From Caulobacter rhizosphaerae (GTDB lineage: Bacteria > Pseudomonadota > Alphaproteobacteria > Caulobacterales > Caulobacteraceae), in NCBI RefSeq assembly GCF_010977555.1, contig NZ_CP048815.1:868001-932000 (forward strand): a stretch of 64,000 nt of DNA, written 5' to 3'. The notes under the pieces were generated by a model. The model saw nothing but the letters and a program-made list of their open reading frames with translations. It was not told the DNA's origin and did not search any database. This document shows, one piece after another, positions 53,992 to 64,000 of this stretch. Position 1 is the first letter of the stretch. Each line of letters opens with the position of its first letter. The position numbers were made by a program, and so were the translations under genes.

Positions 53992-54007
53992 GTGAAACAA
54001 ATTTCAC
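53992..54007. promoter_or_regulatory. inverted repeat GTGAAA-CAAA-TTTCAC before GH95
   Basis: A perfect 6-base inverted repeat with a 4-base spacer lies 84 bases before the GH95 start codon, in a locally AT-rich stretch that ends in CTTGCAAACAATA. It is a plausible operator for the GH95 gene. No regulator gene is adjacent. Confidence 0.4.
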
Positions 54008-54090
54008 TCTTGCAAACAATACCGCTCCCATGGATAGACATTTCCGGCTCAGTCCGTCCAAACGAGGCGGACGACCGGGGAGTGACAGCC

Positions 54091-56436
54091 ATGACCAACC
54101 CGACCCGCCGCGCCGTTTTCCTGGCGGGCTCGGCCATGGCCGCCTTGCCCGGCATGGCCCAAACGACTCCATTGGAAGCCGCCACGGACCTGCGCCTCTG
54201 GTACCGGCAACCGGCCAGGGAATGGGTCCAGGCCCTGCCCGTCGGCTCGGGCCGGCTGGGCGCGATGGTGTTTGGCGGGACCGCCGTCGAGCAACTGCAG
54301 CTCAACGAGAGCACCCTGTGGGGCGGCGGCCCCTATGACCCGGTCAATCTCCAGGCGGCGGGCGCCTTGCCGGAAATCCGCCGGCTGATCGACGCGGGCC
54401 AGTACGCCGACGCCTCGGCCCTGGCCGCCGCCAAGTTCATGGCCACGCCGCTCTGGCAGATGCCCTACCAGACCCTGGGCGCGCTGAAACTGTCGTTCCC
54501 GGGCCTGCCGGACGCCGGCGAAGGCTATGTCCGCGACCTCGACCTCGACGCGGCCACAGCTCGGACGCGCTTTTCGCACGGCGGCGTGGCCTTCGCGCGG
54601 GAGGTCATCGCCAGCGCGCCCGACCAGGTGATCGCCGTGCGGCTGTCGGCCGACAAGATGGGCGCGATCTCGGTGGACCTGGCCTTCGACAGCCCCCTGA
54701 AGCCGACGGTCGCGGCGGAGGGCGGCGACACCCTGGTGCTCAGCGGCCGCAACGCCGGCCAGCACGGGATCGCCAGCGCCCTGACGGTGGACTGCCGGGT
54801 CAAGGTCGTCGCCAAGGGCGGCAAGGTTCTGGCCCAGGACCAGGGCCTGTCCGTGCGCGGCGCGGACGAGGTGCTGCTGCTGATCGTCGCCGGCACCAGC
54901 TATCGCCGCTTCGATGACGTCTCGGGCGACCCCGCCGCCGACAACCGTGCGCGGCTGGCCCGCGTCGCGCGCAAGCCGTGGCCTGTCCTGCTGGCCGACC
55001 ATCAGGCCGACCATCGCCGCCTGTTTCGCAAGGTGGCCGTGGATTTCGGGACGACGGGCGCGGCCTTGCGGCCGACCGACGAGCGCATCCGCCTGTCGCC
55101 GACCACCGACGACCCGGCGCTCGCGGCCCTCTATTTCCAGTACGGCCGCTATCTGCTGATCGCCTGCTCGCGCCGCGGCGGCCAGCCGGCCAACCTGCAG
55201 GGCCTGTGGAACGACAGCATGAACCCGCCCTGGGGCAGCAAGTTCACGATCAACATCAATACCGAGATGAACTACTGGCCCGCCGAGCCCACCGGCCTGG
55301 CCGAATGCGTCAAGCCCCTGGTCGAGATGGTCCGCGACCTTTCGGTCACCGGCGCGCGAACGGCCAAGGCGATGTACGGCGCGCGCGGCTGGGTCGCCCA
55401 CCACAACACCGACCTTTGGCGGGCGACGGCGCCGATCGACGGCGCGGAATACGGCGTCTGGCCGACCGGCGGCGCGTGGCTGTGCAAGCACCTGTGGGAC
55501 CACTACGACTACGGCCGCGACACGGCCTATCTGGCCGACGTCTATCCGCTGATGAAGGGCGCGGCGCTGTTCTTCCTCGACGCCCTGGTGGTCGATCCCA
55601 AGTCCGGCCGGCTGGTGACCAATCCGTCGATCTCGCCGGAGAACAACCACGGCCGCGGGTCGGCCCTGGTCGCGGGTCCGACCATGGACGAGGCCATCCT
55701 TCGCGACCTGTTCGACAACTGCATCGCCGCCGCGCGGGTCCTCGGGCGCGATGCGCCGCTGGCGGCGGAATTCGCGGCGACGCGCGACAGGCTGGCCCCC
55801 TACAAGATCGGCAAGGAGGGCCAGCTTCAGGAATGGCAGGAGGACTGGGACGCCGGCGCCATGGACATCCATCACCGCCACGTCTCGCACCTCTACGGCC
55901 TGTTCCCGTCCGACCAGATCGCCTTGGACCTGACGCCCGATCTCGCGGCGGCGGCCCGCAAGACGCTGGAGACCCGCGGCGACCTTTCCACCGGCTGGGC
56001 CATCGCCTGGCGGCTGAACCTGTGGGCCAGGCTGGGCCAGGGCGACCACGCCCATGGCATCCTCAAGCTGCTGCTGAGTCCCGAGCGCACCTATCCCAAC
56101 ATGTTCGACGCCCATCCGCCGTTCCAGATCGACGGCAATTTCGGCGGGACCAGCGGCATGACCGAGATGGTGCTGCAAAGCCGCAACGGCGCCGTGCACC
56201 TGTTGCCGGCCCTGCCCTCGGCCTGGCCGAACGGCAAGCTGACGGGCCTGCGGGCGCGCGGCGGGCTGGGCGTCGACGTATGGTGGAAGGACGGGAAGCT
56301 GCTGCGGGCCCGGCTGACGGCGGACAAGCCCGGCCGCCACATGGTGCGCGTCGCGGGGCGATCGTTCGTCGCGGACATGCGACAGGGCGAGAGGATCGAG
56401 CTGGTGATGCGGGACGATCAATTGCGACGCGGCTAA
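54091..56436 (+). CDS. GH95 alpha-L-fucosidase (or alpha-L-galactosidase)
   Basis: ATG 54091 with GGGGAG eight bases upstream gives a 781-residue precursor; the leader MTNPTRRAVFLAGSAMAALP carries a twin-arginine pair and is cleaved near GMAQTT. GH95 features are LPVGSGRLGAMVFGG, LNESTLWGGGPYDP, GRYLLIACSRRGGQPANLQGLWN, NINTEMNYWPAEP with the asparagines that activate water, and the acid Glu in GQLQEWQEDWD, then HRHVSHLYGLFP and the C-terminal QIDGNFGGTSGMTEML-like segment. GH95 inverts configuration and typically cleaves alpha-1,2-fucose. It stands alone as a single-gene unit downstream of gene debris. Confidence 0.94.
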   Translation: MTNPTRRAVFLAGSAMAALPGMAQTTPLEAATDLRLWYRQPAREWVQALPVGSGRLGAMVFGGTAVEQLQLNESTLWGGGPYDPVNLQAAGALPEIRRLIDAGQYADASALAAAKFMATPLWQMPYQTLGALKLSFPGLPDAGEGYVRDLDLDAATARTRFSHGGVAFAREVIASAPDQVIAVRLSADKMGAISVDLAFDSPLKPTVAAEGGDTLVLSGRNAGQHGIASALTVDCRVKVVAKGGKVLAQDQGLSVRGADEVLLLIVAGTSYRRFDDVSGDPAADNRARLARVARKPWPVLLADHQADHRRLFRKVAVDFGTTGAALRPTDERIRLSPTTDDPALAALYFQYGRYLLIACSRRGGQPANLQGLWNDSMNPPWGSKFTININTEMNYWPAEPTGLAECVKPLVEMVRDLSVTGARTAKAMYGARGWVAHHNTDLWRATAPIDGAEYGVWPTGGAWLCKHLWDHYDYGRDTAYLADVYPLMKGAALFFLDALVVDPKSGRLVTNPSISPENNHGRGSALVAGPTMDEAILRDLFDNCIAAARVLGRDAPLAAEFAATRDRLAPYKIGKEGQLQEWQEDWDAGAMDIHHRHVSHLYGLFPSDQIALDLTPDLAAAARKTLETRGDLSTGWAIAWRLNLWARLGQGDHAHGILKLLLSPERTYPNMFDAHPPFQIDGNFGGTSGMTEMVLQSRNGAVHLLPALPSAWPNGKLTGLRARGGLGVDVWWKDGKLLRARLTADKPGRHMVRVAGRSFVADMRQGERIELVMRDDQLRRG

Positions 56437-56734: not shown

Positions 56735-57502
56735 TCAATGCGAAGCCGCTTCGATCAGCCTGGCGACCTCATGGGGGTGAGAGATCATCACGACGTGCGA
56801 GGCTCCAGGCACGATGACGATCTGTTTGGCGCGGGCCCGCTCGGCCATCCATTTCATGGCGGCCGGCGGGATGTTGCGATCGGCTTCGCCATAGGTCCAC
56901 CACGACGGGATGGCCTTCCAGCCGTTGGCGACGGCCTTTTCGGCTCCAGCCGCGTCGGTCAGCGGCCGCTGGGCCACAGCCATCAGCTTGGCTTGGGCCA
57001 GGGGGACATCGGCGGCGAATTGGACCGGGAATTTGTCCTGCTGGATGTATAGGTCGTGAGCGCCGCCGGGTAGATCGACGGGCCTTTCCAGCGCACTAGG
57101 CAGGGTGCTGCCCGGGAACTTCCCGGAGAGCTCGAAGATGCTCTCGCCGACCTCGGGGGCGAAGGCCGCGACATAGACCAGCGCCTTGACGTTGGCCGCA
57201 CCGTCGCTGGCGGCCGAGATCACCGCGCCGCCATAGGAATGGCCGACCAGGATCACGGGGCCGGGGATTGCGTCGAGCACCGTCCGCACGGCGGCCGCGT
57301 CGCTGGCAAGACCGCGCAGGGGATTGGCGGCGGCCACGACGGGATAGCCGTCGCGGGTCAAGTCGGCGACGACGCCGTTCCAACTGCTGCTGTCGGCGAA
57401 GGCGCCATGGACCAGGACCACCGTCGGCTTGGTCTGGGCATGAGCGGTGGCCAGGTTCGCCAGGCCAAGGGCCAGGGCGAAGGCGAACACTTTCTGGGTC
57501 AT
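56735..57502 (-). CDS. periplasmic alpha/beta-hydrolase in the ECF regulon
   Basis: The 255-residue precursor has a signal peptide ending near ATAHAQT. The fold is a small alpha/beta hydrolase: VVLVHGAFADSSSW, nucleophile serine in LVGHSYGGAVI, and His in GASHVVMISHP. This group includes esterases and hydrolases acting on small aromatic or hydrophobic esters. It is transcribed away from the sigma-factor gene. Upstream is a copy of the ECF-type promoter element, its distal half at 57583-57587, 81 bases before the start, so it is probably a direct target of the adjacent sigma factor. Confidence 0.9.
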   Translation of the reverse strand: MTQKVFAFALALGLANLATAHAQTKPTVVLVHGAFADSSSWNGVVADLTRDGYPVVAAANPLRGLASDAAAVRTVLDAIPGPVILVGHSYGGAVISAASDGAANVKALVYVAAFAPEVGESIFELSGKFPGSTLPSALERPVDLPGGAHDLYIQQDKFPVQFAADVPLAQAKLMAVAQRPLTDAAGAEKAVANGWKAIPSWWTYGEADRNIPPAAMKWMAERARAKQIVIVPGASHVVMISHPHEVARLIEAASH

Positions 57503-57582: not shown

Positions 57583-57609
57583 GAACGCAGGTCGCCGCAA
57601 AATCCTCAC
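57583..57609 (-). promoter_or_regulatory. ECF-type promoter copy 1 (hydrolase)
   Basis: On the minus strand GTGAGGATTT (57609-57600), 12 bases, then CGTTC (57587-57583). The spacing equals that of three other copies in this neighbourhood. It faces the alpha/beta-hydrolase gene. The two blocks look like minus-35 and minus-10 elements of an ECF sigma factor, which often have a GGAxTT-like upstream block and CGTT downstream. Confidence 0.75.
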
Positions 57610-57628
57610 CCCACCGCCGCCCGCGAAG

Positions 57629-57655
57629 GTGAGGACTTCCACCGGGACTGCGTTC
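57629..57655 (+). promoter_or_regulatory. ECF-type promoter copy 2 (sigma/fecR)
   Basis: GTGAGGACTT (57629-57638), 12 bases, CGTTC (57651-57655), 79 bases before the chosen sigma start. It is back-to-back with copy 1, 20 bases apart. It implies autoregulation of the sigma factor. Confidence 0.75.
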
Positions 57656-57733
57656 TGCCTTTCCGACACCTGACGCCCGTTGGTCGTTGGACAGATGGCG
57701 GAGTCTCTGATGGGAATGGCGCGAGAGGGGCCC

Positions 57734-58261
57734 ATGAGCGACGCTTCCGACGCCGCCGCGCGCGCGGACGCCTTCGCCCGGCAGGCCGCGGCGATGCGGA
57801 GTCCCTTGGGCGCCTATTTTCGCCGCCGGATCCGCAACGCCGGCGAGGTGGAGGATCTGGTGCAGGAGGTCTTTCTTCGCCTGACGGTGCGCGGCACGCC
57901 CGACCATGCTGACCACGCCAGCGCCTACATCTTCCAGATCGCCGCCAGCGTGCTGGCCGACCGCCATCGCCGCCGCACGGTCAGACGCGCCGACGAGCAC
58001 GTCCCGCTGGACCCGGACCTTCGCGGCGAGCAGGATTTCGACCCGGCCCGCATCTATGCCGGCAAGCAGGCCCTGAACGCGGCGGCCGCGGCCCTGATGA
58101 CCATGCCCGAACGCACGCGGACGATCTTCCTGCTTCGGCGGATCGACGGCCTTCGCCATCAGGCCATCGCCAAGCAGCTTGGTCTCTCGGTCAGCGCCGT
58201 CGAAAAGCACATGGTTCGCGCCATCGAGCATCTGATGGCGCATGCGGGAGGCGCCCGATGA
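57734..58261 (+). CDS. ECF RNA polymerase sigma factor, FecI-like
   Basis: ATG 57734, with GAGAGGGG upstream, is preferred over a TTG at 57680 and two earlier ATGs, because the promoter element at 57629 leaves a normal leader; the product is 175 residues. Region 2 is PLGAYFRRRIRNAGEVEDLVQEVFLRL (key residues F, D, Q, F, R), and region 4 is MPERTRTIFLLRRIDGLRHQ followed by AIAKQLGLSVSAVEKHMVRAI. The FecI-like sigma factors answer a signal passed from an outer-membrane receptor through a FecR anti-sigma. Its stop overlaps the fecR-like start (ATGA). Confidence 0.93.
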   Translation: MSDASDAAARADAFARQAAAMRSPLGAYFRRRIRNAGEVEDLVQEVFLRLTVRGTPDHADHASAYIFQIAASVLADRHRRRTVRRADEHVPLDPDLRGEQDFDPARIYAGKQALNAAAAALMTMPERTRTIFLLRRIDGLRHQAIAKQLGLSVSAVEKHMVRAIEHLMAHAGGAR

Positions 58262-59295
58262 CCCGCGACGTCCTGACCCCAGCCCAGGCCGCAGCTCGAT
58301 GGCTGGCCCGCGACGATCTCGATCAGTCGCCCCAGCGCGAACAGTTCGCGGCTTGGCTGGAGGAGAGCGAGGAGAACCGCGACGCCTGGACCCAGGCGCA
58401 ACGGATGTGGAATATCTTCGACGACGCAGATGACAGCGACCTGATCGCCGCCATGGCGCGGGGGGCCAGGAAGGCTGGGCCCGAGCCCGCCGCCAAGCCG
58501 TTCTGGCCTCAGCTCGTCGCAGCCTCGATCGCTGTCGCAGCGGTGTCGGTGACACTGTTCTTTGGCGCCCAGCAAGGCTGGTTCGACCACGCCGCCAAGC
58601 CGACCCAGGTCGCCCTCAACGAGGCCGCCTCTCTGACGGCCGTCGGGCGCGCCGACTACGTCACCGGTGCGGGACAGAGATCCATCGTCGACCTGCCGGA
58701 TGGCACGCGCGTCACCCTGGACGCCGACAGCGCGGTCGACGTCGCCTTCGCGGGAGGCCGGCGTGACGTGCGCCTGCTGAACGGCCATGCCTTCTTCGAC
58801 GTCGCTCATGATCGCGCCCGTCCCTTCGCCGTGCAGGCGGCCGGGCGAGTGGTCACCGCCCTAGGCACCCAATTCGACGTGCGGCTGACGTCGGGCGCCT
58901 TGCGGGTCGTGCTGGCCGAGGGAAGCGTGTTGGTGAGCTCGCCCTCGGAAGGCGGCTCCGCGCCGCCAATCAGGCTTTCGCCCGGTCAAGCCTTCTCCGC
59001 CCAGCCGGGGGGCGTGGGCAAGGTGACGCCCGCGAATCTCGATGACGCCTTGGCCTGGAAGCAGGGCGTGGTGGAGTTTCGCGACCAGCCGCTGTCCGAG
59101 GCGGTCGGCGTGCTGAATCGCTACACGCGGGCCCAGATCGTCATCAAGGATTCCAAGGTCGCGGCCTTGCACATCACCGGCGTCTTCAAGACCGGCGACG
59201 TCAAGCGGTTCGGGCGCTCGGTGTCGGAGGTCCTGCCCGTGAGGATGGTCGCCCGCGACGCCGACACCTATGAGCTGGTTTCGACGCGGCGCTAG
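58258..59295 (+). CDS. FecR-type anti-sigma/sigma regulator
   Basis: The 345-residue protein has an N-terminal DUF4880-like cytoplasmic segment (AAARWLARDDLDQ to WTQAQRMWNIF), one membrane helix at about residues 84 to 105 (LVAASIAVAAVSVTLFF), and a periplasmic FecR domain (SIVDLPDGTRVTLDADSAVDVAF, RDVRLLNGHAFFDV, FAVQAAGRVVTALGTQFDVR; key residues L, G, L, A, F, V). The end contains a STN-like segment (LNRYTRAQIVIKDSKVAALHITGVF) that contacts receptor N-termini in this family. It overlaps the sigma gene by four bases. The receptor partner is probably the one partly seen at 61576. Confidence 0.93.
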   Translation: MTRDVLTPAQAAARWLARDDLDQSPQREQFAAWLEESEENRDAWTQAQRMWNIFDDADDSDLIAAMARGARKAGPEPAAKPFWPQLVAASIAVAAVSVTLFFGAQQGWFDHAAKPTQVALNEAASLTAVGRADYVTGAGQRSIVDLPDGTRVTLDADSAVDVAFAGGRRDVRLLNGHAFFDVAHDRARPFAVQAAGRVVTALGTQFDVRLTSGALRVVLAEGSVLVSSPSEGGSAPPIRLSPGQAFSAQPGGVGKVTPANLDDALAWKQGVVEFRDQPLSEAVGVLNRYTRAQIVIKDSKVAALHITGVFKTGDVKRFGRSVSEVLPVRMVARDADTYELVSTRR

Positions 59296-59307
59296 GCGCT
59301 GTTTCCC

Positions 59308-59334
59308 GTGAGGACTTTTGCAAACGCCACGTTC
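59308..59334 (+). promoter_or_regulatory. ECF-type promoter copy 3 (YcaC-like gene)
   Basis: GTGAGGACTT (59308-59317), 12 bases, CGTTC (59330-59334), 83 bases before the isochorismatase-family start and 13 bases after the FecR stop. The upstream block is identical to copy 2. Confidence 0.75.
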
Positions 59335-59416
59335 TCCCTAGTAGAGCGCCGCGGGCCTGGGGTCTCCTCTCGCCAAATAGCTGTCGTCGCTCGAAACCCC
59401 TGAGCGAGGACCCGAC

Positions 59417-60028
59417 ATGACATCGCCCCAGACCATCCGCGATCCGCTGGCCGACCCCCTGCTGACGCCCCAGAACGCCGCCTTGCTGATCATCGATTTC
59501 CAGCCCGTGCAGGTTTCGTCCATCGTCACGATGGAAAAGCGCCTGCTGATCGCCAACGTCGTCAATCTGGCCAGGACCGCTCGGCTCTACGACCTGCCCG
59601 TGGTGCTCACCACGGTGAACGTCGCCACCGGGCTCAACACCCCGACCATCACGCCGATCACCGACGTACTGCCGGACGTTCGGCCGCTGGACCGCACCGC
59701 CATCAACGCCTGGGAGGACGAGGACTTCGTCGCCGCGGTGAAGGCGACGGGGCGCAACAAGCTGATCATGGTCGCCCTGTGGACCGAGGTCTGCCTGGCG
59801 TTCCCGGCCCTGGACGCCCTCGCCGAGGGCTTCGAGGTCTTCGCGGTGGTGGACGCGGTGGGCGGCACCTCGGAGCTGGCCCACCGCGCCGGCATCGACC
59901 GCGTCGTCCAGGCCGGTGGCAAGCCGGTCAGTTGGATCCAGATCGCCTGCGAGCTGCAGCGCGACTGGAACCGGACGGCGACCGCCGAGGGTTTCGCCGA
60001 CATCGTTCTGCGCGCGGTCGGCCACTAA
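59417..60028 (+). CDS. YcaC-like isochorismatase-family hydrolase
   Basis: The 203-residue protein matches YcaC-type cysteine hydrolases: the Asp in LLIIDFQPVQV near residue 27, INAWEDEDFVAAVKATGRNKL, and the catalytic Cys in WTEVCLAFPALDALAEGF near residue 123, then GIDRVVQAGG and ACELQRDWNR, the YcaC end. There is no signal peptide, so it is cytoplasmic. YcaC homologues form octamers and their physiological substrate is unknown. The ECF-type promoter copy at 59308 makes it a target of the adjacent sigma factor. Confidence 0.93.
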   Translation: MTSPQTIRDPLADPLLTPQNAALLIIDFQPVQVSSIVTMEKRLLIANVVNLARTARLYDLPVVLTTVNVATGLNTPTITPITDVLPDVRPLDRTAINAWEDEDFVAAVKATGRNKLIMVALWTEVCLAFPALDALAEGFEVFAVVDAVGGTSELAHRAGIDRVVQAGGKPVSWIQIACELQRDWNRTATAEGFADIVLRAVGH

Positions 60029-60041
60029 GCGACCGAAAAAA

Positions 60042-60068
60042 GGGAGCAAGGCCAGCCGCCTTGCTCCC
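60042..60068. terminator. bidirectional intrinsic terminator
   Basis: GGGAGCAAGG (60042-60051) pairs with CCTTGCTCCC (60059-60068), loop 7. It is flanked by A6 at 60036-60041, which is a T tract on the minus strand, so it is a textbook terminator for the minus-strand cupin gene and also lies just after the plus-strand YcaC-like gene. Confidence 0.85.
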
Positions 60069-60096
60069 GCTCTGTTGCCGTCGGGTCGGGTACGGA

Positions 60097-60567
60097 TCAG
60101 GGCTTGGGCGCGTTGGCCGCCTCGACATAATCCGTGCTGGTGGGGCCAAAGCCTGAGATGTAGACGCTGGCACCTTCAGGGCCGGTCATGGCGAAGTGAT
60201 CGACTCCTGCCGGCTCGCTGTAGAAGCTGCCCGGCGGCAGGATCTTGACCAGCGCCCCGTCGGCCTTGCGGCCATAGCCGAAGCGCCAGACGCCCGAGAC
60301 GACCACGGCGGTGCGGTTGTCCCGGTGGCTGTGGGCGGCGATCCGCATGTTGGGCGGCGCCCACAGCGCGATCGTATAGGGGCCGGCCTTGGTCGGGTCG
60401 CCGTAGAGGACGGTCGTGCGGATGCCGGTGACGCCCGAGGTGCCGGCGGTCGCGCCGCCCTGCGTTAAGGCGGCGATCTCCGGCGGGGTCAGGCGCAGCT
60501 GGCGATCCGAGGCGGCGCCGGAAAGGACCAGCAGGACGGCTGCGGCGAGAGCAAGGCGGCGGCTCAC
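60097..60567 (-). CDS. secreted small cupin protein
   Basis: GTG 60567 overlaps the stop of the hydrolase gene (GTGA) and starts a 156-residue precursor with leader VSRRLALAAAVLLVLSGAAS; a longer frame runs through the hydrolase gene and is shadow. The cupin barrel has metal-ligand candidates in MRIAAHSHRDNRTAVVVSG and the second motif PPGSFYSEPAGVDHFAMT. It is probably periplasmic. Cupins of this size are often isomerases, dioxygenases or sensors. Co-translation with the hydrolase suggests they act on the same compound. Confidence 0.88.
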   Translation of the reverse strand: MSRRLALAAAVLLVLSGAASDRQLRLTPPEIAALTQGGATAGTSGVTGIRTTVLYGDPTKAGPYTIALWAPPNMRIAAHSHRDNRTAVVVSGVWRFGYGRKADGALVKILPPGSFYSEPAGVDHFAMTGPEGASVYISGFGPTSTDYVEAANAPKP

Positions 60568-61499
60568 GGCTTGGCCTCCAGGAAGTCGCGGACCATCGCC
60601 ACCGTGGCCTTGGGGTTTTCTTCCATGATCCAGTGGCCGGAGTCGGGGACCACGCCTTCGGTGACGTTGGTGGCGGCGAAGCGCATCACCGTGGCCATCA
60701 TCGGCCCGAACGACTTTTCGCCGCCCATGGCCAGCACCGGCATGGTCAGCTTGCCCTCGGCGATGAAGGCCTTGTTGTCGATCGCGTCCTGGTCGAAGGC
60801 GGCGAACTGCGAGAAGCCGCCATGCATGGCGCCGGGCAGGGCGTAGAGCTTGGCGTAGTGCTCGCGCGAGGCCTCGGTGAAGCGGGCGGGCGTGGCCGAG
60901 AACTCGTTCCAGAAACGGTCCAGATAGATGCGCTCGCGGCCGGCGACCAGGCGCTCCATGTCCGGTCCGCCGAAGCGGAAGTGCCACAGCAGAGGGTTCT
61001 TGAGGATCTCCTCCCAGGGACCGACGCCGGGCAGCGGCGCGTCGATCAGCACGAAGCGGCGGACGCGGTCGCGGTGTTCGGCGGCGAAGGCGTAGCCGAC
61101 CATGTTGCCGATATCGTGGGTGACGAGGTCGACCTGGCCGACCTTCAGCGCGTCAAGAACGCCGGCGACGTCCTGGCCCTGGTTCTTCTTGTCGTAGCCG
61201 CCGGAGGCCGGCTTCGACGACAGGCCCAGGCCCCGGAGATCGGGCACGATCACGGTGTGAGTCTTGGCGAGCTCGACCGCCATCGGCTCCCACATGTCGC
61301 CGGTCTCGCCATAGCCGTGCAGAAGCACGACGGCCGGACCCTTGCCGCCGACGCGGACGTGGATCTTCGCGCCATTGGTGGCGATGTCCTGGACCTTGAA
61401 GTCGGCAGGGAAGGGTTTGACCTGCGCCTGGGCCGGGGAGGCCAGGGCCGAGGCCGATAGGATTAGGGCCGCCAGGGCGACCGGAGCGAGCTTGAACAC
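60564..61499 (-). CDS. alpha/beta-hydrolase, haloacetate-dehalogenase/epoxide-hydrolase type
   Basis: GTG 61499 has GGAGGACAGCAG directly upstream and gives a 311-residue precursor with a signal peptide ending near SPAQAQV. The core shows VVLLHGYGETGDMWEP, the nucleophile Asp in LVTHDIGNMVGYAFA (Asp rather than Ser), WHFRFGGPDMERLVAGRERIYLDRF in the cap, and the His in VPDSGHWIMEE. Asp-nucleophile members open epoxides or remove halide from haloacids. An export signal is uncommon for that group. It lies downstream of the receptor at 61576 and has its own ECF-type promoter copy. Confidence 0.9.
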   Translation of the reverse strand: MFKLAPVALAALILSASALASPAQAQVKPFPADFKVQDIATNGAKIHVRVGGKGPAVVLLHGYGETGDMWEPMAVELAKTHTVIVPDLRGLGLSSKPASGGYDKKNQGQDVAGVLDALKVGQVDLVTHDIGNMVGYAFAAEHRDRVRRFVLIDAPLPGVGPWEEILKNPLLWHFRFGGPDMERLVAGRERIYLDRFWNEFSATPARFTEASREHYAKLYALPGAMHGGFSQFAAFDQDAIDNKAFIAEGKLTMPVLAMGGEKSFGPMMATVMRFAATNVTEGVVPDSGHWIMEENPKATVAMVRDFLEAKP

Positions 61500-61544
61500 C
61501 TGCTGTCCTCCAGGATCGCGCGGAACCACCGCGCCTAGGAGGGG

Positions 61545-61571
61545 GAACGCAGGCTATCGGCGAACCCTCAC
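61545..61571 (-). promoter_or_regulatory. ECF-type promoter copy 4 (hydrolase-cupin operon)
   Basis: On the minus strand GTGAGGGTTC (61571-61562), 12 bases, CGTTC (61549-61545), 46 bases before the hydrolase GTG and just after the receptor stop. It lets the hydrolase-cupin pair be expressed separately from the receptor. Confidence 0.7.
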
Positions 61572-61575
61572 GCGC

Positions 61576-64000
61576 CTAGAAGCGGCTGAGCAGGGTCAGG
61601 TCGAAGCGGCGACCGCGAGGATCGGCGAAGGGGCTGTAGCCCATGCCGTATTCGTTGGCGACCACCGGGGCGTCGCGGTCCAGCACGTTGCGGACGCCGA
61701 AGCGGACCTCCATCGAGCGGGCCAGCGCCATCGGCGGCCGGTCGAAGCGATAGGCGCCGACCAGGTCGAAATAGATCTGGCTGGCGATCCGGTCCGAGCC
61801 CTGGAAGCGTATCCACTGATCGGCGCGGAACTTTGCTTCTCCCAACCGCGCCACGCGGTAGTGATCGTAGAAATCGGCGGCGAGGCCCAGCAGCCATGGG
61901 CCGCGGGACCATTCCGCACTCGCCGTCCCGCGCCACGCCAAGGGCTCCAGATCGTCTCCCACCGCGTTGAGCGTCTCGTTGTAAGGCTCCACATGGCGTC
62001 TCAGGAGGGGCTGCCATGTCACCGAACTCGAGAACCGCAGATCGCCGGCCTTTCGGGTGGCGATGCGATAGTCGAACTGGAAATCCACCGCTTCGCTGAT
62101 CGTCTCGCCGATGCTGAAGGCGCTCGTGTCGAGGCTGGTGACCACCCCTGCGGTGTAGCCTCTGGCCCGGTCGGCGTCGGTCAGGGGCGCGCGGATCACG
62201 CGCTCGGGATAGAGAGCCTCATGGTCCAAGAAATATTGGGCGCCGCCGCCGGAGATGATGACGGGTTCGCGGGTTTTTACGATCCGCGTATAGTCGATCG
62301 AGAACCGCAGGCCCGGCGCGGCCCGGGGCGTCGCCACCAGACCGACCGAGACGCTACGCGCCCGTTCGGCGGTCGGTGATCCGCCGAAGGTGGCGAGCAG
62401 CGGCTGCTCGGAACCGATCAAGGCGCCGCGCCGCTTGGGGTCGCTGGAATGAACGCCGAACTGGTAGTTCCACGCCACGCCCCCCGTACCTTCGCTCGCA
62501 GAGTATCGCATGGTGGCGCGGGCCAGCTGAGCGATCGCCGGCGGAACGACGCCCGTCGCCAGGCTGGCGCGCAGCATCACGTCAGGCATCGGGAACACCC
62601 GAAGGCCCAGGGTGTAGACCGGCGCTGTCTGGTGGTCGTCGACCGGATCGTCGTTGGCGAACAGCAGGTCGTCGCGATTGGCGGGCAGGACCGCCCGCAT
62701 CGCCTCGTGGCGCACCGCCAACTGCAGTTCCAGGCCAGACAATAGTCGCGGCCCATCGTCTCGCGGGATCAGCGGCGCGCGCGCCTCGGCGTAGTAGGAC
62801 CGGAGGGTCTGGGTCACGCCGTACGGCATGCCGTCCCAGAAGAACAGGTTGTAGTCCTTGACCGTGGCGGCTGGAACGTGCTCGCGGCGATCCTCGGCCA
62901 GCAGCGACAGGGTCAGCGGACCACCGGGCAGGTCCGCCACCGATCCCGCGAGCCTGGCGGAGATGACGCGGAAGCTGTTGGATTGGACGTACGAGCCAAA
63001 GCTGCCGGGTTGATCGTGGTAGTTCGCTGAACCGCGGACTTCGGCCTCGCCCGCCGTATAGTCGGCGTTGAGTTTCCAGGCGGCCGGCAGGTCGATGATC
63101 AGGCCGGCGGTGGTCCGTGTCGTCGCCGTCCGGCTTCGCTGCTCCACCGCTTGGTCCAGCGTCGAGTAGCCGTTGGCCAGGGCGCTCACAGGGACGCCGA
63201 TATAGCGCCCCGCGGGGGTGTATGAGCGACCCTCGCTACGCAACGCCAGCCCGTCGAGATAGGCCTCCACCGACGGGCCGAACCGGTGGCGGACGCTGAG
63301 CAGGGCGGATGAGGAGCTTTCGCGTGTGACGAGGTTGGCCCATGGGGTGATCAGGCCGGGCGCGAATTGCAGATCGATCTTCGCCACATCGGCCGCCGAG
63401 AGCCCTGGGCTGTCGGCCAGAAAGGACTTGCGGTCGTTCGCATAGCGCCGGGCCCGGGCCTTGGCGGGATAGTCACGTTCGCCGACCCGCAGATCGGCGC
63501 CGCGGAAATCGCTGAAGGCGACCATGACGTCGGTCCGCCCGCCGTCCGGCGTGAAGCCGATCCGTCCGTCCACCCGCTTGGTCGCAGCATCGAAGCGGGA
63601 TGTGTCGCCATAGGTGACCGCCAGGTCCGCGCCCCGGTAGTCTCGCTTCAGGACGATATTGACGGCGCCCGCCACCGCGCCCGCGCCGTACACGCCGCCG
63701 GACGTTGCGGTCAGCACCTCGATACGGTCGATCGCCGACAGCGGCACGCCGCTGATATCGGACTGCAGGAAGGCGTTGTCGATGGAAGGCAGGCTCGGCA
63801 AGCGCCGACCGTCGATCAGCACCAGGGTCTGGCTGGACCCCATGCCACGCATGTCGATCTCTGATCGGCTGCTGCCGTTCTGGTTGACGGGATCCTGGAT
63901 CGCCGCGCGGGGCTGAGCGTTGCTGGACAGGCGTTCTCGAAAGAAGTCGTCCAGGGTGTCGACGTGCGATGTGGCCAGGTCGCGGGACGTCCAGACCTTG
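61576..64000 (-). CDS. TonB-dependent receptor, N-terminus beyond window
   Basis: The minus-strand frame is open from the window edge to the stop at 61576, 808 codons, so the signal peptide and any N-terminal signalling domain are outside. The visible part starts in the plug region with VDTLDDFFRERLSSNAQ and SSRSEIDMRGMGSSQTLVLIDGRRLP, then the IDRIEVLTATSGGVYGAGAVAGAVNIVLKRDY plug end (key residues R, E, V, Y, G, G, A, N). The barrel ends FDLTLLSRF with terminal Phe. The MRGMGSSQ/DGRRLP plug is characteristic of receptors with an N-terminal STN domain that signal to FecR, so this is the likely partner of the FecI/FecR pair 2.3 kb away. Confidence 0.92.
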   Translation of the reverse strand, partial: KVWTSRDLATSHVDTLDDFFRERLSSNAQPRAAIQDPVNQNGSSRSEIDMRGMGSSQTLVLIDGRRLPSLPSIDNAFLQSDISGVPLSAIDRIEVLTATSGGVYGAGAVAGAVNIVLKRDYRGADLAVTYGDTSRFDAATKRVDGRIGFTPDGGRTDVMVAFSDFRGADLRVGERDYPAKARARRYANDRKSFLADSPGLSAADVAKIDLQFAPGLITPWANLVTRESSSSALLSVRHRFGPSVEAYLDGLALRSEGRSYTPAGRYIGVPVSALANGYSTLDQAVEQRSRTATTRTTAGLIIDLPAAWKLNADYTAGEAEVRGSANYHDQPGSFGSYVQSNSFRVISARLAGSVADLPGGPLTLSLLAEDRREHVPAATVKDYNLFFWDGMPYGVTQTLRSYYAEARAPLIPRDDGPRLLSGLELQLAVRHEAMRAVLPANRDDLLFANDDPVDDHQTAPVYTLGLRVFPMPDVMLRASLATGVVPPAIAQLARATMRYSASEGTGGVAWNYQFGVHSSDPKRRGALIGSEQPLLATFGGSPTAERARSVSVGLVATPRAAPGLRFSIDYTRIVKTREPVIISGGGAQYFLDHEALYPERVIRAPLTDADRARGYTAGVVTSLDTSAFSIGETISEAVDFQFDYRIATRKAGDLRFSSSVTWQPLLRRHVEPYNETLNAVGDDLEPLAWRGTASAEWSRGPWLLGLAADFYDHYRVARLGEAKFRADQWIRFQGSDRIASQIYFDLVGAYRFDRPPMALARSMEVRFGVRNVLDRDAPVVANEYGMGYSPFADPRGRRFDLTLLSRF

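Follow-up and report, generated by a model that had tools for sequence, protein, structure and literature searches.

The window analysed here, a 64,000-nucleotide stretch of the Caulobacter rhizosphaerae genome (C1:868001-932000 of 5,963,910 bases; G000 in the genome survey below), carries near its right end a cluster of hydrolase genes around a gene pair for a FecI-like extracytoplasmic function (ECF) σ factor and a FecR-type anti-σ factor, together with four copies of a short bipartite element, GTGAGG-N16-CGTTC. The σ gene (57710..58261, + strand) encodes σ regions 2 and 4 as judged by Pfam (PF08281, PF04545, and PF04542, each above cut-off); its frame is readable from a TTG at 57680, and a GGAG lies upstream of the ATG at 57710. 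The product of fecR (58258..59295, +) contains PF04773 (81.7 bits) and, by eye, a membrane helix, and its N-terminal portion scores 22.3 bits against PF16220, under the cut-off of 25. Its nearest solved chain is 6ovk_R (E 1.5e-17), from the complex that PupR forms with the signalling domain of PupB. Against the NCBIfam models of the ferric citrate type, both proteins stay below cut-off: the σ factor reaches 61 bits with NF041727 (FecI, ferric citrate uptake; cut-off 260), and FecR reaches 107.6 bits (cut-off 385). The minus-strand gene at the window edge (61576..64000, continuing for 422 bases to 64422; L005:1577-4423) holds an open reading frame of 948 residues with an STN domain (PF07660, 36.2 bits, cut-off 28.4), a Plug domain (60.3 bits), and a barrel (46.5 bits), the latter two also above cut-off. 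Judged by these domains, the sensor of the unit is this STN-bearing TonB receptor. With the STN-bearing transducer, FecR, and the ECF σ factor adjoining one another, the three components of a surface-signalling relay are complete.

Each copy of the element points at a gene. Two lie in the divergent gap between abh1 and the σ gene, at 57583..57609 (- strand) before abh1 and at 57629..57655 (+) before σ-fecR, the latter predicting autoregulation; the third (59308..59334, +) precedes ycaC, and the fourth (61545..61571, -) precedes abh2-cupin. A first-pass annotation made from the letters alone had placed ECF-type promoters at these positions and on these strands, and all four match there with 0 mismatches. 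It had also put them 46 to 83 bases before a start codon; the stretch of the receptor gene beyond the window and the STN domain were out of its sight. Measured from the CGTTC block to the likely start, the distance is 80 nucleotides for abh1 (ATG 57502, -), 54 for the σ gene (ATG 57710), 82 for ycaC (ATG 59417), and 45 for abh2 (GTG 61499, -), near the claim. When the whole genome was scanned, as that annotation had proposed, exactly four exact matches were found, all within this 4 kilobases, and the reversed pattern, used as a control, matched once. With one mismatch allowed there are 83 matches in the genome versus 41 for the control, and a single repeat accounts for 16 of the 83. With two mismatches allowed, the window alone gives 17 matches, a number so near the 14.6 expected that loose matching is uninformative.

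The genes behind the elements are of the kinds that had been claimed, hydrolases and a cupin. The abh1 gene (56735..57502, -) encodes an alpha/beta hydrolase (PF12697, 99.8 bits) with an apparent signal peptide by eye; the solved chains closest to it (best E 3e-10) belong to hydroxynitrile lyases, esterases, and other alpha/beta hydrolases. The product of ycaC (59417..60028, +) is a YcaC-like isochorismatase-fold hydrolase (PF00857, 82.9 bits) nearest to YcaC itself among solved structures (1yac, E 8.7e-39); with the NCBIfam YcaC model it scores 156.8 bits, below the cut-off of 310. The cupin gene (60097..60567, -), whose start codon overlaps the abh2 stop codon, encodes a protein with an apparent signal peptide by eye and 25.6 bits against PF12973 (Cupin_7), below the cut-off of 27; among its 1247 relatives the best-match members bear the name cupin. 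The second alpha/beta hydrolase, abh2 (60564..61499, -; PF00561, 96.6 bits), also has an apparent signal peptide by eye and is related to Cif, the nearest solved structures being Cif-like 1 (7jqx, E 1.6e-46) and Cif (3kd2, E 4.7e-40). Candidates for the aspartate nucleophile and the His-Tyr ring-opening pair of Cif-like epoxide hydrolases are its HDIG, WHF, and a tyrosine, which line up with Cfl1. At residues 61-64, counted from GTG 61499, it reads H-G-Y-G in place of H-G-X-P, the motif of canonical epoxide hydrolases according to PMC8244358. Because of this replacement abh2 is not filed as an epoxide hydrolase; Cfl2 also departs from the motif (A-G-F-P). The genome holds a second copy of abh2, 71% identical and without an element (G000:C1:5375497-5376414, L256). 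A GH95 family glycoside hydrolase gene (53992-56436) adjoins the cluster. It was considered as a further target and rejected, as the window scan finds no element before it and, among related modules, just one has a homologue nearby, a distant one (35%).

The conservation of the element was followed in 75 Caulobacter genomes, this one included. An orthologue of the σ factor (84-99% identity) is present in 12 of them, and the further relatives listed at E ≤ 1e-36 are 42-56% identical; named records that carry a near orthologue include Caulobacter sp. Root343, D5, UNC279MFTsu5.1, and RHG1. The element stands at the matching promoters in the 11 further genomes, which answers the question raised by the first-pass annotation of whether orthologous genes in related species are preceded by it. 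The total is 44 sites in 12 modules: one before the σ gene in each of the 12, one at the other side of the divergent promoter in each of the 12 (weak in G080), one in all 11 modules that hold abh2, and one in all eight that hold ycaC, plus a ycaC remnant in G022. In a pooled table of 43 sites, which omits the divergent one of G011, the bases of TGAGG are present in 43, 43, 41, 43, and 43 sites and those of CGTTC in 43, 43, 42, 37, and 33. Taken group by group, all four kinds of promoter show stronger conservation in the two boxes than in the 20 flanking bases on each side. Most sites were found with a weight matrix trained on 15 sites from four genomes. In eight module loci (L248-L255), every match of at least 14 bits sits at a module promoter, and six loci that lack the σ gene (L256-L261) give no match of at least 14 bits. 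Some modules are irregular: G022 (L053:4430-4560) has lost ycaC by deletion but keeps the promoter element and first codons of the gene; in G046 (L250:6454-7490) fecR lies in two frames with a 4-base overlap near FecR residue 167, either a natural split or a sequencing error; and the module of G056 (L248) has the σ gene, fecR, receptor gene, and an AraC-type gene with no adjoining abh2, ycaC, or cupin.

The distribution of the element ties it to this σ factor in particular. A relaxed exact pattern (TGAGGNNTN11YGCGTTC, no mismatch) matches 26 times in 14 of the 75 genomes, versus 8 matches for the reversed control. Of the 26 matches, 23 fall in 11 of the 12 σ-positive genomes, all at the module, and the other three in three of the 63 remaining genomes (Fisher p 8.5e-10). 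A similar division is seen among copies of abh2, of which 31 are present in 28 genomes and 30, those with available loci, were tested: all 11 copies adjoining this σ gene have the element (28-37 bits), versus none of the 19 others, whose maximum is 1.1 bits (p 1.8e-8; neither p value takes into account how closely the genomes are related). The element-free copies include one in G015, a genome 76% complete, that is 89% identical, the paralogue at C1:5375497, a fragment in G081, and a copy on contig 79 of G011 that lies about 3 kilobases from a 43-44% identical σ gene and yet lacks the element. Near the more distant σ factors (42-56% identity; L072-L083, some of these loci being from close relatives or from one same genome), seven of 12 loci have a diverged element of at least 16.9 bits before the σ gene and/or after fecR, often with TGCGTGT as the second block. 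Three genes adjoining such diverged elements were tested, and two encode AraC-type regulators and one a LysR-type regulator. In L081 an alpha/beta hydrolase gene follows the diverged element, and in L073 a relative of YcaC (50%) is found further along.

Within C. rhizosphaerae, the extent of the regulon was judged from a looser pattern with 78 genomic matches (control 29), all scored with the matrix of 43 sites, so that the list is preselected by pattern. The four elements, themselves part of the matrix, score 26.7-33.8 bits, against at most 17.1 for the other 74 matches; the four sites stand clearly apart. Eight off-module matches were examined in context: several lie inside genes, one (C1:1540314) sits in an inverted repeat before a gene that by eye resembles glutathione S-transferase, and no second coherent target set emerged from the eight. 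Four-member families with inverted repeats were considered as promoters and are read as dispersed hairpins instead. Repeat-family-like inverted repeats of the form GTGAGGG...CCCTC occur between genes at C1 near 651478 and 1242964, where they were read, and near 2746623 and 4808560, known as pattern matches only. Elsewhere, C1:2046602-2115606 contains 16 identical 27-mers, mostly 3-5 kilobases apart, a layout that fits a large modular repeat gene or cluster.

Together, these results indicate that the element is almost certainly the promoter of this ECF factor: it tracks the σ gene, its boxes are conserved above their flanks, and it is kept in modules without the AraC-type gene discussed below, as expected for the ECF-type promoter originally proposed. 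It is highly likely that the locus encodes a complete FecA/FecI/FecR-type cell-surface signalling unit with four local promoters of its own. Within that unit, it is very probable that the outer-membrane sensor, relay protein, and σ factor turn on a few adjacent hydrolase genes by way of one element used four times. Several points weigh against this reading. No exact match to the relaxed pattern occurs in the σ-positive genome G011, and in the remaining five of the 12 distant-σ loci the element is absent or doubtful. Four of the 11 element-bearing abh2 copies belonged to the training set of the matrix, and the conservation figures lean upward because the matrix was trained on 15 of the sites. 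In none of the 12 modules is there an element before the receptor gene (best score -5.0 bits, gene starts being approximate), a usual target in such systems (PMC11637429). Six other matches in the C. rhizosphaerae genome score 14.8-17.1 bits, close to the weakest accepted site at 17.4; weak further targets may therefore exist elsewhere in the genome. Lastly, the element, its conservation, its tie to the σ gene, the transducer domain, and the lack of an element before the receptor gene are computed, and we infer σ binding, transcription, signal flow, and a catabolic or detoxifying purpose; the regulon is a prediction from sequence.

The receptor differs from the rest of the module in its apparent history. 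Compared with the other modules, the σ factor of the window is 84-96% identical and abh2 88-96%, versus only 35-45% for the receptor. DNA alignments with four of five related loci span the module and stop between 61570 and 61712, around the receptor stop codon at 61576, and the match with the fifth (G004) stops at 61514; past these ends there are weaker pieces of 65-80% inside the receptor gene. A tree of the core proteins from 11 modules places G000 near G057, G079, and G049 (100/98; G057 alone 87/91) and rejects a group of G000, G004, and G046 (p 3e-6). In the receptor tree G000 joins G004 and G046 (100/100), and G000 with G057 is rejected (p 1.7e-60). These trees use a simple LG+G4 model, omit G056, which has no abh2 or cupin, and test groups named after the identities had been seen. 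As reconstructed, then, the receptor and the remainder of the module have conflicting lines of descent. Compared with G004, G046, and G056, the STN domain of the window shows 62-67% identity and the barrel 43-45%. Most simply, the receptor gene would have been exchanged, its barrel having diverged more than its signalling domain. Right of the receptor gene are transposase-, recombinase-, and ParB-like genes, identified by eye (L005:5716-11496), in DNA of lower G+C content (62.9% at window numbering 64423-68000 versus 67-70% in the cluster genes). A 13-base sequence from the spacer of the abh2 promoter (61545-61571), CGCCGATAGCCTG, recurs about 70 bases upstream of the receptor start codon (L005:4488-4500).

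By analogy with known systems, a ligand would bind the TonB-dependent transducer, whose STN domain would act on FecR; FecR would then be proteolysed and the ECF σ factor freed. The σ factor would guide RNA polymerase to promoters matching TGAGGAYTT-N9-CCTGCGTTC. One of these is its own σ-fecR promoter, which would produce positive feedback, and abh1, ycaC, and abh2-cupin would also be driven. In the presence of ligand the cell would thus make a cytoplasmic hydrolase together with three proteins that appear to be exported, a cupin and two hydrolases. A σ factor that feeds back on itself, with the receptor gene outside the loop, could give a switch-like output without more uptake of the ligand. 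A catabolic or detoxifying role fits the enzymes. A more tentative proposal, which we hold to be rather less likely than not, is that the circuit has an exchangeable sensor. Here the σ/anti-σ/hydrolase output would be conserved and the TonB transducer exchanged from one species to another. The same hydrolases would then be triggered by different compounds outside the cell, probably non-iron ones such as plant or microbial products that bear esters or epoxides, with the receptor gene remaining outside the feedback.

The main rival is that the unit is related to iron after all, the receptor importing a ferric siderophore and the hydrolases opening an ester siderophore to release the metal. Esterases for siderophores exist, and the weak family matches of the receptor are to siderophore, B12, and FecA-type receptors. 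A Fur-like 19-mer (12/19 against the consensus) is present upstream of the receptor gene, a marginal match since 7 of 200 shuffles are as good. Most studied systems of this type do serve iron (PMC2729926). However, no iron-transport gene is preceded by the element, the regions before the σ gene, ycaC, and abh2 have no Fur-like match above shuffles, and for none of the hydrolases is the closest solved structure that of a named siderophore esterase. The iron-related reading is rather unlikely, at roughly one chance in four.

Much less probable is the idea that some other regulator belonging to the cluster uses the element as its operator. One such regulator would be the AraC-type protein whose gene lies at the divergent promoter in related modules. 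Such a gene does face the divergent element in seven of the 12 modules (six of the proteins being 55-61% identical to that of G079). However, in the window, G049, and G066 it is missing and abh1 follows directly, with the elements present regardless; G049 has no match to the AraC-type gene anywhere at E 1e-20. A pair of boxes spaced by 16 in every case and always directed at the gene fits a promoter, and the presence of the element follows the σ gene. A chance cluster of four matches has a negligible probability: loosened patterns do match widely (the 83 versus 41 and 17 versus 14.6 given above), but the exact matches occur only here in the genome, and elements are found at the corresponding promoters of 11 further genomes. 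Both chance, which is refuted, and an AraC-type operator are set aside because of this distribution of the element.

If the promoter assignment is correct, the cluster offers a sharply defined ECF promoter with a small local target set, which is directly testable, and it points to surface signalling for hydrolases rather than iron transport, an unusual role for a type of switch known mainly from iron uptake. The replacement of the sensor with retention of the output would be a natural experiment on the matching of STN and FecR, and one common reporter could reveal the ligands of several receptors. A literature search, which reached few subscription papers, found no published description of this regulon. 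The first-pass annotation did not recognise a catabolic or detoxifying use of surface signalling under a FecI-like factor as described. Its statement on the nearby targets, hydrolases and a cupin, stands; as a qualification, FecI/FecR-type signalling outside iron uptake has been described, and iron-independent surface signalling is already known.

Two such systems are PUMA3 (VreA/VreI/VreR) of Pseudomonas aeruginosa (PMC2729926) and PrhA/PrhI/PrhR of Ralstonia (PMC1790865), which also use surface signalling for a purpose other than iron uptake. Compared by description, those systems control virulence or sense plant contact, whereas the apparent output here is a local set of hydrolases. In Sinorhizobium meliloti, also an alphaproteobacterium, fecI is likewise found with fecR and a TonB receptor gene, but PMC6180224 gives only two putative targets and no promoter motif, unlike the element common to four promoters here. 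The apparent signal peptide of abh2 is a feature shared with Cif. However, cif is controlled by the TetR-type repressor CifR (PMC8244358), and abh2 stands behind an ECF element. With the Fec/Fox-type systems the cluster shares the three parts encoded together, an STN-bearing TonB transducer, a FecR-domain protein, and an ECF σ factor. It differs from them in its predicted targets, which are hydrolases, and in its receptor gene, which lacks the element although receptor genes are usual targets there (PMC11637429). It also differs at the σ gene itself: E. coli fecIR and hasI are not autoregulated according to PMC9249621, whereas here the σ gene has the element and autoregulation is predicted.

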